From Panacagrimonas sp. (GTDB lineage: Bacteria; Pseudomonadota; Gammaproteobacteria; Nevskiales; Nevskiaceae): a stretch of DNA of 64,000 bases. The notes under the pieces are model-generated. The model made no database searches, was not told the origin of the DNA, and was given only the letters and a program-made list of their open reading frames with translations. The position numbers and the translations under genes were made by a program. Positions 35,784-42,288 of this stretch are shown here, piece by piece. The DNA is taken from positions 1 to 64,000 of the forward strand of contig NZ_JAJFBP010000019.1 in NCBI RefSeq assembly GCF_020697055.1, read 5' to 3'. How positions within the stretch are numbered: position 1 is the stretch's first letter; each line of letters opens with the position of its first letter.

Positions 35784-37511
35784 TCAGGGTTTCAAGGCCT
35801 GCAGCTCGCGTTCGAATTCGTCCATCCCCGTGGCGGCGAATACGCGGTCGACCTTCGCGCGCAGGTCGCCGACCTCCGACTCGCGTACCGCGCGCTTGAC
35901 CTCGAGCACGTTGGCCGGGTGCATCGAGAACTCGGTCAGGCCCAGGCCGAGCAGCAGGCGCGTGTAGCGCACGTCGCCGGCCATCTCGCCGCACATCCCC
36001 ACTTCGATGCCGGCGGCGTGGCCGGCCTCGATGGTCATGCGGATCAGGCGCAGCACCGCCGGATGCAGCGGGTCGTAGAGGTAGTTGACCTCGTCGTCCA
36101 CGCGATCGATCGCCAGCGTGTACTGGATCAGATCGTTCGTGCCGATCGAGAAGAAGTCGACCTCGCGCGCCAGCAGGGGCGCGGCGATCGCGGCGGCCGG
36201 AACTTCGATCATCGCGCCCACCGGGATATGGTCCGCCACCTTCCTGCCTTCGCGCGCCAGCTCCGTGCGACAGGCCGAGATCAGGGTCCTGGCCTGCCGC
36301 AGCTCGGCCAGGCTCGAGATCATCGGCAGCATGATGCGCACCTGTCCGTGCGCCGAGGCGCGGAGCAAAGCACGCATCTGCACGCGAAACAGTTCCGGCT
36401 CCTTGAGGCACAGCCGGATCGCGCGCAGACCCAGCGCCGGGTTGTTCGGCGTCGGCCCGTGGCGCTGGCCCGAATCGACCTGCTTGTCGGCACCCAGGTC
36501 GAGCGTGCGGATGGTGATCGGCCCCTTCACCGCGGAAACCACGCGCGAGTACGCCTCGTACTGCTCCTCCTCGGTCGGCAGGCCCTTCCGGTTCATGTAC
36601 AGAAACTCGGTGCGATACAGGCCCACGCCGGCCGCGCCGTTGGCTTCGGCCTCCTGCGCATCCTCCGGCAGCTCGATGTTGGCCTGCAGGCGCACGCCGA
36701 CCCCGTCGCGCGACAGCGCCGGCTTGTCGCGCAGGGACTGCAGCAGACGGCGATCCTCGGCCTGCTGATCCTGCTTGCGCCGGTAGTGATCGAGCGCCTT
36801 GGCATCGGGATCGGCAAGCACGTGTCCGTGCTCGCCGTCGACGATCACCGTCTCGTTCTCGCGCAGCAGCTTGCGCGCGTTGTGCAGACCCACGACCGCC
36901 GGTATGCCCAGGCTGCGCGCGAGGATCGCGGTGTGCGACAGCGGACCGCCGTACTCGGTGACGATCGCCAGCATCGACTGCTGCGATAGCAGGATGATGT
37001 CGGCCGGCGTGATGTCGTCGGATACGATCACGCAGGGCTCGGTCAGGCCCGCGTCCGGCAGCGCCCGCTCGGACTTGGTGAGCACGCGCTGTACGCGGCT
37101 GACCACGTGTTCGACATCGTCGCGCCGCGTGCGCAGGTACGGGTCCTCCATCTGCTCGAACACCGCCACCAGCGCGTCGCGCGATCGACGCAGCGCCGCT
37201 TCGGCATTGATGCCCAGCGTGCGGATGTGGCCGACGGTGGCGTCGACCAGCGAACGGTCGTCGAGCATCAACAGGTGCGTGTCGATGAACGCGGCGATGT
37301 CGCCCGGCGTTCCCGGCGGAATGCGGCTGCGCACCTCGTGCAACTGCGCCAGCGCCTGGTTCTGCGCGTCGCGAAACCGCTCGACCTCGCGATCCAGTTC
37401 CTCCGGGGTCACCGCGTACTCGGCGATCTCCAGGTCGCCGCCGTGCAGCTTCTGCACGCGCGCGATCGCGATGCCGCGCGAGACACCGATTCCGGAAAGC
37501 CAGAGGGACAT
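35784..37511 (-). CDS. ptsI: PTS enzyme I (phosphoenolpyruvate-protein phosphotransferase)
   Basis: 575 residues with full EI architecture and no N-terminal GAF, so EI rather than EI-Ntr (PtsP). Phospho-histidine H193 lies in GGPLSHTAILARSLGIPAVVG (pattern, about 188-208). The PEP-binding barrel contains GVGLYRTEFLYM, IRTLDLGADKQ, FFSIGTNDLIQYTLAIDR and the cysteine segment GMCGEMAGD. It takes phosphate from PEP and passes it to HPr. As no sugar permease EIIBC is encoded here, the chain is probably regulatory. Confidence 0.95.
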   Translation of the reverse strand: MSLWLSGIGVSRGIAIARVQKLHGGDLEIAEYAVTPEELDREVERFRDAQNQALAQLHEVRSRIPPGTPGDIAAFIDTHLLMLDDRSLVDATVGHIRTLGINAEAALRRSRDALVAVFEQMEDPYLRTRRDDVEHVVSRVQRVLTKSERALPDAGLTEPCVIVSDDITPADIILLSQQSMLAIVTEYGGPLSHTAILARSLGIPAVVGLHNARKLLRENETVIVDGEHGHVLADPDAKALDHYRRKQDQQAEDRRLLQSLRDKPALSRDGVGVRLQANIELPEDAQEAEANGAAGVGLYRTEFLYMNRKGLPTEEEQYEAYSRVVSAVKGPITIRTLDLGADKQVDSGQRHGPTPNNPALGLRAIRLCLKEPELFRVQMRALLRASAHGQVRIMLPMISSLAELRQARTLISACRTELAREGRKVADHIPVGAMIEVPAAAIAAPLLAREVDFFSIGTNDLIQYTLAIDRVDDEVNYLYDPLHPAVLRLIRMTIEAGHAAGIEVGMCGEMAGDVRYTRLLLGLGLTEFSMHPANVLEVKRAVRESEVGDLRAKVDRVFAATGMDEFERELQALKP

Positions 37512-37599: not shown

Positions 37600-37866
37600 T
37601 CACGCCTCTTCTCCGAACCGGTCCGCGATCAGGCCGCACAACTCGTCGAGTGCCTTTTCCGCATCCTCGCCTTCCACGATCAGCGTGATCTGGCTGCCCT
37701 GCGCGGCCGCGAGCATCATCACCCCCATGATCGACTTGCCGCTGACCTCGCGCGCGTCCTTGCGCACGCGCACGTCGCTGGAGAACTTGCTCGCCAGCGT
37801 GACGAGCTTGGCCGCCGCCCGCGCGTGAAGCCCGAGGCGGTTGACGATGTCGACGGTGCGTTCCAT
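37600..37866 (-). CDS. ptsH: HPr phosphocarrier protein
   Basis: 88 residues. The phosphorylation histidine is H14 (NRLGLHARAAAKLV), and the regulatory serine region is S45 in GKSIMGVMML, the target of HPr kinase in organisms that have it. It shuttles phosphate from EI to the EIIA-Man-type protein encoded upstream. It belongs to the minus-strand chain rapZ-EIIA-HPr-EI, separated from EIIA by 105 bases that hold a 7-base tandem repeat. Confidence 0.96.
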   Translation of the reverse strand: MERTVDIVNRLGLHARAAAKLVTLASKFSSDVRVRKDAREVSGKSIMGVMMLAAAQGSQITLIVEGEDAEKALDELCGLIADRFGEEA

Positions 37867-37876
37867 GGGGCGGTAA

Positions 37877-37905
37877 TCAGTGGTCAGTGGTCAGTGGTCA
37901 GTAGG
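37877..37905. repeat. 7-base tandem repeat upstream of ptsH
   Basis: TCAGTGG is repeated three times (37877-37897) and followed by the variant TCAGTAGG (37898-37905), only 10 bases from the ptsH start codon on the minus strand. Repeat-number changes would alter the leader length. Confidence 0.75.
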
Positions 37906-37971: not shown

Positions 37972-38370
37972 TCAGCCACTGCTTTTCGGACAGAGAATGA
38001 TGCCGCGCTGGCCGCCTTCGACCGCCAGACGCGCGAGTTCGTCCACCGCGGCTTTCGGATAATTGAAGACGCGCACCAGCATCGGCAGGTTCAGGCCCGA
38101 CACGACCGGCGAGCCATGGATCGCCGAGAGCTTGTTGGCGATGTTGCTGGGCGTCGAACCGAATGCATCGGTCAGCAGCAGCACGCCGGCGCCGGTGTCC
38201 AGACGCTCGATCATCTTGCTGCCCTGGTTGATCAGCACCTCGTGCGCCTGTACGCGGCGCACTTCGAGCACGTCGGCGGGTACCGGCAGCTCGCCGATCA
38301 TGTCGCGCATGCAGTCGAGCATGAAGTGCCCGAGCTTGCCGTGCGTGACCAGCAGGATTCCGACGCTCAT
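37972..38370 (-). CDS. PTS mannose/fructose-type EIIA component
   Basis: 132 residues of a stand-alone EIIA-Man domain. Phospho-histidine H10 sits in GILLVTHGKLGHFM, and VLLLTDAFGSTPSNIANKL and VVSGLNLPMLVRV are typical. No EIIB, EIIC or EIID partner is visible, so it is most likely a regulatory phospho-protein, as in other proteobacteria with incomplete PTS chains. It follows rapZ with a 4-base gap. Confidence 0.93.
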   Translation of the reverse strand: MSVGILLVTHGKLGHFMLDCMRDMIGELPVPADVLEVRRVQAHEVLINQGSKMIERLDTGAGVLLLTDAFGSTPSNIANKLSAIHGSPVVSGLNLPMLVRVFNYPKAAVDELARLAVEGGQRGIILCPKSSG

Positions 38371-38374
38371 CGAT

Positions 38375-39235
38375 CTATCTCAGTTCCTTGTGCTTGACGA
38401 TCACGGGATCGAAGGATTTGCGGAAGTGGCGCGCCAGGCGCTCGACCAGGTACACGCTGCGGTGCTGGCCGCCCGTGCAGCCCACGCCGATCGTGACATA
38501 GGCACGATCCTGTCGACGGAACGCCGCCAGCCACGGCTCGAGGAACTCGCGGATGTCGCGCAGCATCCGCTGCACGTCCTCGCGCGCGTCGAGCCATTGT
38601 TCGACCGCTTCGTCACGACCGGTCAGATCCTTGAGCGCCAGATTCCAGTGCGGATTGGGCAGGCAGCGCACATCGAACAGATAGTCGAAGTCGCCCGGCA
38701 CGCCGTTCTTGAATCCGAACGACACGAACTGCACCGCCAGCTTGCCCTTCACCGCTTCGGGCAGCCTTTGCAGGATCACCTCGCGCAGTTCGTGCAGGTT
38801 CATCTGCGAGGTGTCGAACGGCTCGTCGGCGAGATCCGCGATCGGGGCGAGCAGCGTGCGCTCGCGTTCGATGGCCTCGGCCAGCGAGGTGGTCTCGTCC
38901 GCCAGGGGATGCGGGCGACGCGTCTCGCTATAGCGACGCAGGATGATCTCGTCCGACGCGGTCAGGAAGATCAGGTGCACGTCCACGCCGCGCGCCTTGA
39001 GCCGCGCGAGGTGCTGCGGGAAGCGCCGGATCTCGCGCGGTGATTCGCGCGCATCGACCCCGATGGCGATGCGCTCGTAGCGCTCGTGCCCGCTCTTGGC
39101 GAGCATGCGCGTGATCATCGGTCCGAGCAGCGCCAGCGGAATGTTGTCGATGCAGGTGTAGCCCAGGTCCTCGTACTGCTTGAGCGCGACGGTCTTGCCA
39201 GCGCCCGAGAGTCCGCTGAGCACCACCAGCTTCAT
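38375..39235 (-). CDS. rapZ: RNase adapter protein RapZ
   Basis: 286 residues from ATG 39235; the frame continues upstream into hprK but without conservation. Walker A SGLSGAGKT (7-15), SYR-type CIDNIP, FGFKNGVPGDFDYLFDVRCLPNPHW (about 165-189, pattern) and VGCTGGQHRSVYLVE near the C-terminus define the family. In E. coli it guides RNase E to the GlmZ sRNA and so controls GlmS; in other bacteria it binds nucleotides. The start overlaps the hprK stop (ATGA). Confidence 0.95.
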   Translation of the reverse strand: MKLVVLSGLSGAGKTVALKQYEDLGYTCIDNIPLALLGPMITRMLAKSGHERYERIAIGVDARESPREIRRFPQHLARLKARGVDVHLIFLTASDEIILRRYSETRRPHPLADETTSLAEAIERERTLLAPIADLADEPFDTSQMNLHELREVILQRLPEAVKGKLAVQFVSFGFKNGVPGDFDYLFDVRCLPNPHWNLALKDLTGRDEAVEQWLDAREDVQRMLRDIREFLEPWLAAFRRQDRAYVTIGVGCTGGQHRSVYLVERLARHFRKSFDPVIVKHKELR

Positions 39236-39783
39236 CGTCCGGACTCCTTGATGTGCTTCATCTGCCGCGCGACGAAATCCTCGGCCGCGTCGTAGCCGTC
39301 GCGCTTGAGCGTCTGGTCGCGGCATGCGGCCTCGGCGAGCGTTGCCAGGCTCTGCCCCACGCGCACTGGCAGCGAGATTTCCGGAATCGCCTTGCCGCAC
39401 ACCATCACGTCGTTGCGACGCCCGCGCAGCCGATCGGGCGGGTCCATGTAATCCGGTGCGCCATCCAGGCGCAGGATCAGGTCCAGCGCCTTGCTCGCAC
39501 GCAGGGCCGGCTCACCGAACATGCGCCCGATGTGCAGGATCCCGAGGCCACGCACCTCGAGGAAACCGTAGAGCAGCGGCGGGCAGCGGCCGACCACGCG
39601 GCCGTCGTGCGCGAGCTCGAATTCGGCGGCGTCGTCGGCGATCAGGCGATGACCGCGTGCGAGCATCTCCAGCGCCAGTTCGCTCTTGCCCACGCCGCTT
39701 TTACCGGCGAGCAGGACTCCGAGACCGAAGATCTCGACGAAGACGCCGTGGAGAGTGACCTTGGGCGCGGACACGCGCCGCAC
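39232..39783 (-). CDS. hprK: HPr kinase/phosphorylase, catalytic domain only
   Basis: Starting at GTG 39783 (a later GTG at 39774 is also possible) the product has 183 residues. The kinase domain is complete: Walker A GKSGVGKS (about 27-34), ADD (49-51), RCPPLL, and the family signature LEVRGLGILHI. The N-terminal domain of about 130 residues seen in Firmicute and Xanthomonas HprK is absent: ptsN ends 14 bases upstream, leaving no room. Alphaproteobacterial HprK proteins have a similar short form. It would phosphorylate HPr on S45 and thus gate the regulatory PTS. It is coupled to rapZ by a 4-base overlap. Confidence 0.88.
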   Translation of the reverse strand: MRRVSAPKVTLHGVFVEIFGLGVLLAGKSGVGKSELALEMLARGHRLIADDAAEFELAHDGRVVGRCPPLLYGFLEVRGLGILHIGRMFGEPALRASKALDLILRLDGAPDYMDPPDRLRGRRNDVMVCGKAIPEISLPVRVGQSLATLAEAACRDQTLKRDGYDAAEDFVARQMKHIKESGR

Positions 39784-39797
39784 CAGGGACCGGGGAC

Positions 39798-40259
39798 TCA
39801 GCGCGCGGGCGAGTAGCCCGACAGCAGCGCGTACAGCGACGCGTTGTCCTGCGCAGCGCGAAGCTTGGCGCAGAACGCATCGTCCGAGAACATCTCGGCC
39901 ACCGCGGCCAGGTGCTTGAGATGCGCCTCCGTCGCGGTCTGCGGGACCAGCAGGCCGAAGATCAGATCCACCGGATTGCCGTCGTGCGAGTCGTAGTCCA
40001 CCGGGTGCTTGAGGCGCATGAACGCGCCGACGCTGCGATCGACGCCGGCCACGCGGCCGTGCGGAATCGCCACGCCGTGACCCAGACCGGTGCTGCCCAG
40101 CTTTTCGCGACTGGTGAGGCTGTTGAACACCTCGTGCTGGCCCAGGTTGGCCGCGCCCGCTGCGAGCAGGTTGGACAGCTCCTCGAGCGCCTTTTTCTTG
40201 CTCGTGACGGCAGTGCCGCTCACGACGCGCTCCGCGCTGAGGATCTCGGTCAACTTCAT
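39798..40259 (-). CDS. ptsN: nitrogen-regulatory EIIA-Ntr (PtsN)
   Basis: 153 residues of a fructose-type EIIA fold. Phospho-histidine H67 is in GHGVAIPHGRV, and FMRLKHPVDYDSHDGNPVDLIFGLLVP is the conserved core (about 81-107, pattern). Its phosphorylation state controls potassium transport and sigma-factor balance in other proteobacteria. It follows the hpf terminator, so it needs its own promoter in 40260-40340; a CATAAT -10-like element is present there at 40322-40327. Confidence 0.95.
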   Translation of the reverse strand: MKLTEILSAERVVSGTAVTSKKKALEELSNLLAAGAANLGQHEVFNSLTSREKLGSTGLGHGVAIPHGRVAGVDRSVGAFMRLKHPVDYDSHDGNPVDLIFGLLVPQTATEAHLKHLAAVAEMFSDDAFCAKLRAAQDNASLYALLSGYSPAR

Positions 40260-40389: not shown

Positions 40390-40713
40390 TTACTGCAGCG
40401 TTCGCTTGACCGCCTGCTTGACGTGGTGATGGCGCAGCTTCTCCTTGTGCTTGCGCGTCTGCTGATCGAGCTTGTCCATCAGCGCGTCGATCGCGGCGTA
40501 CATGTCCGCGTCCACCACCGCCTCGGCATGCAGATCGGCGCCGCTCGCATGAACCGTCGCCTCCGCCTTGTGCCGCAGCTTCTCGACCGACAGGATCACG
40601 TCCGCATTGATGAGGTGATCGAAGTGACGCTCGATGCGCTTGAGCTTCGTCGTCACGTACTCGCGCAACGGCGCGGTCAGGTCGAGATGATGGCCGGAGA
40701 TGTTCAGATTCAT
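40390..40713 (-). CDS. hpf: ribosome hibernation promoting factor
   Basis: 107 residues from ATG 40713, which has a strong AGGAGG site; upstream in-frame codons lack conservation. The short HPF pattern is clear: MNLNISGHHLDLTAPLREYV, KLKRIERHFDHLI, KAEATVHASGADLHAEA and MYAAIDALMDKLDQQ. It promotes 100S ribosome dimers in stationary phase. Its place between rpoN and ptsN is the canonical one. Confidence 0.95.
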   Translation of the reverse strand: MNLNISGHHLDLTAPLREYVTTKLKRIERHFDHLINADVILSVEKLRHKAEATVHASGADLHAEAVVDADMYAAIDALMDKLDQQTRKHKEKLRHHHVKQAVKRTLQ

Positions 40714-40774: not shown

Positions 40775-42244
40775 TCAGGCCACCGCCTTGCGTTCGTGCG
40801 ACGGCGGGATGTTGAGCGCCTCGCGATATTTGGCGACGGTGCGGCGCGCAACCTGGATGCCTTCCTTCAGCAAAAGATCCGCCAGCGTGGAATCCGACAG
40901 CGGACGCGCCGGGTCCTCGCCACCGACCATGCGCTTGATCATCGCCTGGATGGCGGTGGCCGAAGCCACGCCGCCCTGCGTCGTGGCCACGTGGCTGGAA
41001 AAGAAATACTTGAGTTCGTAGAGACCGCGCGGGGTCAACATGTACTTGTTGGCGGTGGCTCTGGACACGGTTGATTCGTGGATCCCCAATGTCTGGGCGA
41101 CGTCCCTCAGGACCAGCGGACGCATCGCTTCCTCCCCATATTCCAGAAATGCCCGTTGCTCTTCAACTATGCATTGCGACACACGCAGGATCGTTTCGTT
41201 CCGCGACTCGAGACTGTTGATGAAGTAGCGCGCTTCCTGCAGGTGCTGCTTGAGCTGCAGCTGATCCTTGGACTGGTCGGCGCGCTTGATGAAGCCCTGG
41301 TAGCGGCCGTTGATACGCAGCTTGGGCATGTGCTCGGGATTGAGGGCCACGCGCCAGCGTCCGTTCTTCTTGGTGACGATGACGTCGGGCATCAGGTAGT
41401 CCGACTCGTGCGCCTGGAACGGGCGGCCCGGATGCGGCTGCAGGCTGCGCACCAATTCGAGGCCCATGCGCACGTCCTCGGCGGTCAGTCCGGTGGCGCG
41501 CATGATGGCGGCCTCGTCCTTGCGCGCGATGTTGAGCAGGCCCGTTTCGACGATCTCCATCGCCGCCCAGCGGCCGGGGCGCGAACGCGGCATCTGCTTG
41601 AGCTGCAGCATCAGGCATTCGGCGAGGTCGCGTGCCGCCACGCCCGGTGGGTCGAATTCCTGGACCTTGGCCAGCACCGCTTCCAGACAGGCCTGCGAGA
41701 TGCCATGGGCCTCGCCCAGTCGCTCGCAGATTCCAGGCCAGTCCTCGAGGTAGCCGTCCTCGTTGATCGCGTCGATCAGGTGCGCCGCGACCACCGCTTC
41801 CTCGTCGTCGAACGGCGCCGCGCGCGCCTGCATCATCAGGTGGTCGAGCAGGCTGGTGGCCGTGTGCAGGTTGGCCTGCAGGTAGTCCTGAAGGCCCTCG
41901 TCGTCCGAGGCGCTCGACGACGACGAAACCGGGACGTGGTCGTCGAACACGTCCCCCCAGTCGGCGTCGACCGGCATGTCCTCGGGAATCGTCTCGTCGG
42001 CGCGCACTTCTCCGAGAATTTCCGTCGGCGCTTCTTCGGCGCTCGCCGCGGGTGCGTCCGCCATGCCGTCGATCTCGAGTTCGGGTCCGTCCGAGTCCTG
42101 CTCGAGCATCAGGTTCGAGTCCAGCACCTGCTGGATCTCCATGTGCAGGTCGAGGCTCGAGAGCTGGAGCAGGCGGATGGCCTGCTGCAGCGCGGGGGTC
42201 ATGGTGAGGCCCATGCCTTGCCGCAAGGCCAGGGATTGCTTCAT
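40775..42244 (-). CDS. rpoN: RNA polymerase sigma-54 factor
   Basis: 489 residues from ATG 42244. Region I is Gln/Leu rich (MKQSLALRQGMGLTMTPALQ, the enhancer-response part), followed by an acidic linker (about 50-110), the core-binding domain and the C-terminal DNA-binding region with the RpoN box ARRTVAKYRE (about 470-479). It directs transcription of sigma-54 promoters with activator proteins. It heads the rpoN-hpf transcript from the promoter at 42289-42317, independently of the lpt operon. Confidence 0.97.
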   Translation of the reverse strand: MKQSLALRQGMGLTMTPALQQAIRLLQLSSLDLHMEIQQVLDSNLMLEQDSDGPELEIDGMADAPAASAEEAPTEILGEVRADETIPEDMPVDADWGDVFDDHVPVSSSSSASDDEGLQDYLQANLHTATSLLDHLMMQARAAPFDDEEAVVAAHLIDAINEDGYLEDWPGICERLGEAHGISQACLEAVLAKVQEFDPPGVAARDLAECLMLQLKQMPRSRPGRWAAMEIVETGLLNIARKDEAAIMRATGLTAEDVRMGLELVRSLQPHPGRPFQAHESDYLMPDVIVTKKNGRWRVALNPEHMPKLRINGRYQGFIKRADQSKDQLQLKQHLQEARYFINSLESRNETILRVSQCIVEEQRAFLEYGEEAMRPLVLRDVAQTLGIHESTVSRATANKYMLTPRGLYELKYFFSSHVATTQGGVASATAIQAMIKRMVGGEDPARPLSDSTLADLLLKEGIQVARRTVAKYREALNIPPSHERKAVA

Positions 42245-42288
42245 CGGTCTCGGGTCGGGGTGACGCGGCAATAGTCCATGGGCGTGAT

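Follow-up and report, generated by a model that had tools for sequence, protein, structure and literature searches.

The window, by which we mean the whole stretch of 64,000 nucleotides analyzed here, comes from a draft genome (72 contigs, 90.6% complete) of Panacagrimonas (Nevskiaceae, Nevskiales), the nearest named relative being Panacagrimonas perspica DSM 26377 with 91% identity. Although the preliminary description treated the host as a relative of xanthomonads, it belongs to Nevskiaceae and is not a xanthomonad in the current taxonomy. The window carries a cluster of genes in the order rpoN-hpf-ptsN-hprK-rapZ-EIIA(Man)-ptsH-ptsI, with the following features:

40775–42271, reverse strand: rpoN (sigma-54); NF004595 over cut-off
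40390–40713, reverse strand: hpf; TIGR00741 over cut-off
39798–40259, reverse strand: ptsN (EIIA-Ntr); TIGR01419 over cut-off
39784–39797, no strand: spacer of 14 bases from the ptsN stop to the hprK GTG, in which the N-domain would not fit
39232–39783, reverse strand: hprK, C-terminal kinase/phosphorylase domain only; 183 aa from GTG 39783, 180 aa if the start is GTG 39774
38375–39235, reverse strand: rapZ; NF003828 over cut-off; start overlapping the hprK stop (ATGA)
37972–38370, reverse strand: EIIA of mannose type; best NCBIfam matches below the curated cut-offs, alone in the cluster
37600–37866, reverse strand: ptsH (HPr), with LHARA and KSIMGVM motifs; the expected HprK substrate
35784–37511, reverse strand: ptsI, enzyme I; TIGR01417 over cut-off

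The hprK product matches PF07475 (Hpr_kinase_C) over positions 4–170 of 171 (8e-51; 172.4 bits, curated cut-off 33.3). Its match to TIGR00679 (199.7 bits) is below the cut-off of 240 bits, which is set for full-length two-domain proteins, and covers positions 128–300 of 300, with the first ~127 model positions being absent. The Walker A (GKSGVGKSE), ADD and signature (LEVRGLGILHIGRMFG) segments are intact in the translated frame, as the preliminary description had read them. The gene opens with a GTG just past the TGA of ptsN and its own TGA overlaps the ATG of rapZ; further upstream the frame stays open, yet there it runs through ptsN in a different register. Nine bases downstream, the alternative GTG would serve equally well as a start; P. 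perspica hprK likewise has GTG-TCC ahead of the conserved part, and the residues preceding VTLHG differ among the three Panacagrimonas congeners. Our analysis confirms that the gene encodes a genuine HPr kinase/phosphorylase with the catalytic domain only, in close succession to ptsN, as had been claimed. In the HPr of the same cluster, His14 of LHARA is the equivalent of His15 and Ser45 of KSIMGVM the equivalent of Ser46. Short CAGTGGT-like tandem repeats were noticed by eye in the space separating ptsH from the EIIA(Man) gene (window positions ~37879–37905).

The N-domain might be supplied by a separate gene, and a search for such a detached domain had been proposed. In the window's own genome, PF02603 gave zero matches at E ≤ 10 and a model built from 22 proteobacterial N-domain sequences gave no match, although this absence is not absolute because the genome is an incomplete draft. 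The 22-sequence model recovered 86 of 86 long-form loci outside its training set, as well as 4 of the 9 loci with degenerate N-domains described below, but none of the 40 short Nevskiaceae loci, 54 other short loci and 16 alphaproteobacterial loci. At the PF02603 cut-off, 0 of 58 Nevskiaceae genomes had a match; the lone weaker one (G055, E 0.04) is a degenerate stretch fused to the hprK of that genome. Thus, a separately encoded N-domain appears extremely improbable.

HprK forms in Nevskiales and other gammaproteobacteria

A kinase domain scoring over cut-off is present in 49 of the 58 Nevskiaceae genomes. Forty of these 49 encode the C-terminal domain only, whereas 9 carry an in-frame degenerate N-terminal stretch (duplicate loci L033, L034, L035 and L056 were dropped and 9 uncertain loci left aside; loci were picked to include short forms, and their proportions are not frequencies). 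All 3 Panacagrimonas members examined have the short form; the preliminary description had named a short form in all close relatives as grounds for refuting its reading, and within the genus this is what we observe. From the ptsN stop to the kinase domain, the gap measures 16–196 bases in 39 of the 40 short Nevskiaceae loci (the remaining piece, from G027, is without ptsN), 304–442 bases with an open in-frame stretch in the degenerate-N loci, and 382–554 bases in 102 of 108 long loci (ptsN was not found in the other 6). In P. perspica and isolate OFTM46, which are separate records, the gaps are 58 and 114 bases, far short of those in the long loci. They refute the idea that the assembly dropped, or the sequencing misread, a segment separating ptsN from hprK, an explanation which the draft state of the genome might invite but which is practically negligible.

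Across 85 genomes of the order, 15 (G058 and 14 members of genus g21) match TIGR00679 over cut-off, starting at model positions 2–23. In most Nevskiaceae, the match begins at ~123–133; it begins at 29–35 in G003, G004, G034, G051, G052, and G055, and at 104–106 in G001 and G002. Together with G035, the latter 8 genomes make up the degenerate-N set (n = 9; genera g2, g3, g8, and g11). The degenerate stretches can be aligned with VGYLNxxHPxxVQVLGxxE, the core that is conserved in long-form N-domains. A first N-domain model recognized 5 of the 9 loci at E ≤ 0.1, the stretch of G035 being suggested by alignment alone and not by the models. The stretches evolve faster than the kinase domain: amino-acid identity is 0.39–0.69 versus 0.80–0.87 for the kinase in four pairs and 0.96 versus 1.00 in a fifth. 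Because the dN/dS of the stretches ranges from 0.15 to 0.76, they may remain under some constraint rather than being simply free of it.

Short forms extend well beyond Nevskiaceae. In a sample of 370 gammaproteobacterial genomes, 227 matched TIGR00679, 161 of them over cut-off, and ~50 of 74 re-scored weaker matches (counted by eye) begin at model position 101 or later. Outside Nevskiaceae, the 54 short loci collected are spread over 25 family codes of Gammaproteobacteria, a count that takes in other families of Nevskiales; a search for ptsN upstream located it in 43 of these loci. Short and long forms occur together within families f104, f95, f129, f13, and f82; in f104, one short and one long form are sisters in both the kinase-domain tree (98/91) and the ptsN+RapZ tree (100/100). 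Loss of the N-domain is probably recurrent, and the sequences point to its having occurred in place.

Full-length HprK encoded in other gammaproteobacterial ptsN-hprK-rapZ clusters has the same position, neighbours and kinase domain as the window hprK but, unlike it, has kept the N-domain of ~130 residues. As stated in the available text of Comas et al. (2008, PMC2405797), Coxiella burnetii and alphaproteobacteria retain only the C-terminal HprK domain. The Coxiella protein is likewise a natural gammaproteobacterial form without the N-domain and is 31% identical to the window HprK; however, Coxiella is described there as having retained ptsK but not the EIIA-Man gene, whereas Panacagrimonas has EIIA-Man, ptsH, and ptsI. 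The proposal of a lineage-specific domain loss therefore stands as far as loss is concerned, given the 9 degenerate-N relatives and the 15 full-length order-mates, but not as to its being lineage-specific, considering the short forms in most hprK-bearing Nevskiaceae, in the 25 family codes and in Coxiella. Whereas the short kind of HprK is already known, the graded Nevskiales series, of which we found no description in the open-access literature, is the part worth keeping.

Vertical descent and horizontal transfer

The preliminary description also considered xenologous replacement. Under this reading, a short hprK acquired from an alphaproteobacterium or another short-form lineage would have taken over the position of the long gene. 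Short alphaproteobacterial HprK, such as that of Brucella, is also devoid of the N-domain and is a serine kinase of HPr/NPr; as far as the available text of PMC2937029 describes it, it has no counterpart of the C-terminal segment to which phosphorylase activity is tied, whereas the window HprK has equivalents of G270, K287, and G290. Consistent with replacement, none of 16 loci taken as alphaproteobacterial (a label assigned from their belonging to the same phylum but another class) matches the N-domain model, and a tree with Nevskiaceae and alphaproteobacteria on one side of a branch was not rejected by the AU test (p 0.407). In the free kinase-domain tree, moreover, Nevskiaceae are not grouped with their long order-mates, although some branches of this tree are very long, its bootstrap had yet to stabilize, and its deep branching order was not used. 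Conversely, constraining Nevskiaceae, one short Salinisphaeraceae and the long order-mates to a clade gave a likelihood 5.89 above that of the free quick search (p-AU 0.565); both AU analyses omit 31 long-branch rows.

The remaining evidence also argues against replacement. In the kinase-domain tree, 10 alphaproteobacterial sequences form a separate clade (100/97). Alphaproteobacterial proteins match NF003883 far more weakly than the window HprK (~1e-11 to 1e-17 versus 1.4e-40). In the L. casei numbering, which we set from H140 as the presumed anchor, they have a gap at position 270 in 16 of 16 sequences and at positions 218, 287, and 290 in 15 of 16, whereas the window protein keeps all four. 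No ptsN was found upstream of hprK in any of the 16 alphaproteobacterial loci, whereas the Panacagrimonas hprK follows ptsN. The degenerate N stretches within Nevskiaceae likewise point to loss in place. Overall, replacement is very unlikely, and an alphaproteobacterial origin of the short form is not supported by C-terminal positions or gene neighbours; as to grouping, the sequences are separate in the tree, but the AU test did not reject a joint placement. Upstream of the alphaproteobacterial hprK, frames resembling a histidine kinase on visual inspection were seen in 7 of the 8 loci viewed; a histidine kinase gene is known beside alphaproteobacterial hprK.

In the ptsN+RapZ tree, which leaves out L190 (no RapZ match), the sampled order is a clade (100/100). 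The degenerate-N genera fall in three places (g2+g3, g11, and g8) and the short f6g19, from a family identified by inference as Salinisphaeraceae, is the sister of the long g21. Based on these placements, the N-domain was probably lost more than once in Nevskiales, although the degenerate-N genera are one clade in the kinase-domain tree. Short HprK is not an alphaproteobacterial trait, and HprK length is therefore unfit as a mark of horizontal transfer.

Loss of hprK and the HPr Ser46 motif

In nine Nevskiaceae genomes, no kinase match reaches the cut-off. Six of them (G017, G019, G020, G042, G053, and G054) have ptsN followed by RapZ, with hprK not found in between; G020 has a weak PF07475 match below cut-off on another contig (1.9e-6). 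In G009, ptsN is present but no RapZ match follows in the short remainder of the piece, and in G013 ptsN is not properly matched. In G028, a kinase remnant corresponding to residues 115–187 and leaving no room for Walker A lies between ptsN and rapZ (L249, ~2041–2250); HPr was not matched at E ≤ 1e-5 in a search of this genome. The same arrangement, with rapZ next after ptsN and hprK missing, is seen outside Nevskiaceae in G059.

The state of HPr largely follows the presence of HprK. Of the genomes examined, 29 have HprK (the window's own, 25 from Nevskiaceae, and 3 from long order-mates), and the best-matching HPr has KSIMG in every one of them, whereas the motif is altered to KSILN, KSILK, or KSTMD in 6 of the 7 HprK-less genomes that have an HPr close to that of the window. 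This comparison excludes G013 (weak, partial-identity ptsN and HPr matches) as well as G009, G028, G069, and G070, in which HPr was not matched, and it disregards weak second HPr-like hits in G005, G011, G039, and G071. The altered motifs (L256, L257, and L259–L262) come from genera g11, g6, and g9, the examined HprK-bearing members of which keep KSIMG; the exception is the HprK-less G059, with KSIMG kept in both HPr copies. The serine itself is conserved in all genomes, HprK-less ones included, and the changes fall in the residues after it (IMG). Since KSIMG is kept where HprK is present and mostly altered where it is missing, the pattern supports, although it does not prove, that the short enzyme acts on HPr.

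Catalytic core and likely function

Residues K161, D178, D179, R206, G209, E278, and G290, the individual roles of which we take to be as in L. casei, are kept in all 40 short Nevskiaceae proteins, and R245 is kept in 39. The AlphaFold model of the window HprK (pLDDT 87.9) matches HprK/P entries with Z scores of 23.9–25.5, including Coxiella 3tqf (Z 25.2, rmsd 1.3 over 150) and the truncated L. casei HprK/P 1kkm (Z 25.5, rmsd 1.7 over 175). The L. casei construct (1jb1, 1kkl, and 1kkm; Z 24.6–25.5) is the same domain with the same fold, ~40% identity and shared catalytic residues; it is an artificially truncated long protein (PMC2937029), whereas the truncation in Panacagrimonas is natural. 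According to the available text of the same paper, L. casei HprK/P without residues 1–127 retains kinase and phosphorylase activity as well as the known regulation, and the short HprK of Brucella phosphorylates NPr on Ser61.

Panacagrimonas HprK has Q and S at the equivalents of L. casei R271 and N272 (3 of 3 genus members and no other of the 40 short Nevskiaceae), where most Nevskiaceae have H and N, the Panacagrimonas segment being GQS. Because phosphorylase activity is associated with the part of the C-terminus where these substitutions fall, the predicted bifunctionality of the enzyme is not certain. The GQS segment, along with the six Nevskiaceae that have ptsN and rapZ but no hprK and the one more with only the stretch of residues 115–187, could also be taken as signs of a decaying, non-functional kinase on its way to gene loss. 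However, the dN/dS of hprK relative to P. perspica (0.084) shows purifying selection and equals those of the neighbouring ptsN (0.086) and rapZ (0.097), the catalytic residues are intact and HPr retains KSIMG. Decay is thus unlikely, and the window HprK is, as judged from its conservation, probably active.

Collectively, sequence comparisons and the structural model make it highly likely that the window encodes a working HPr-Ser46 kinase/phosphorylase, the N-domain of which was lost in place during vertical descent within Nevskiales, leaving the catalytic domain only. The domain would have been lost at the ptsN-hprK-rapZ position, where relatives display full-length, degenerate-N, N-less, and deleted states. 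HprK/P of other bacteria is a hexamer, and the window protein would be expected to assemble likewise. It would phosphorylate Ser46 of HPr with ATP, so that phosphotransfer from enzyme I towards HPr and the EIIAs becomes slower, and would remove the phosphate from Ser46 by phosphorolysis; the N-domain would be dispensable for catalysis. In some lineages, its erosion seems to precede loss of the whole gene.

More tentatively, HprK may be decaying convergently in Nevskiales, with the N-domain lost first, the kinase next, and the docking site around Ser46 of HPr drifting last. In that case, the N-domain would act as a regulatory module that can be detached from the kinase and is dropped whenever its input is of no further use, and Panacagrimonas, with its GQS segment, may hold a kinase-biased enzyme; we put this scenario forward as a possibility rather than an expectation. 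In the available text of papers from 2008 (PMC2405797) and 2010 (PMC2937029), the function of the HprK N-domain is given as unknown. Species with eroding, N-less, and deleted hprK at one locus, along with full-length order-mates, offer natural variants for testing this function. Within genus g11, L094, L095, and L096 have a degenerate N stretch and the kinase, and L243 and L244 have ptsN and rapZ without hprK.
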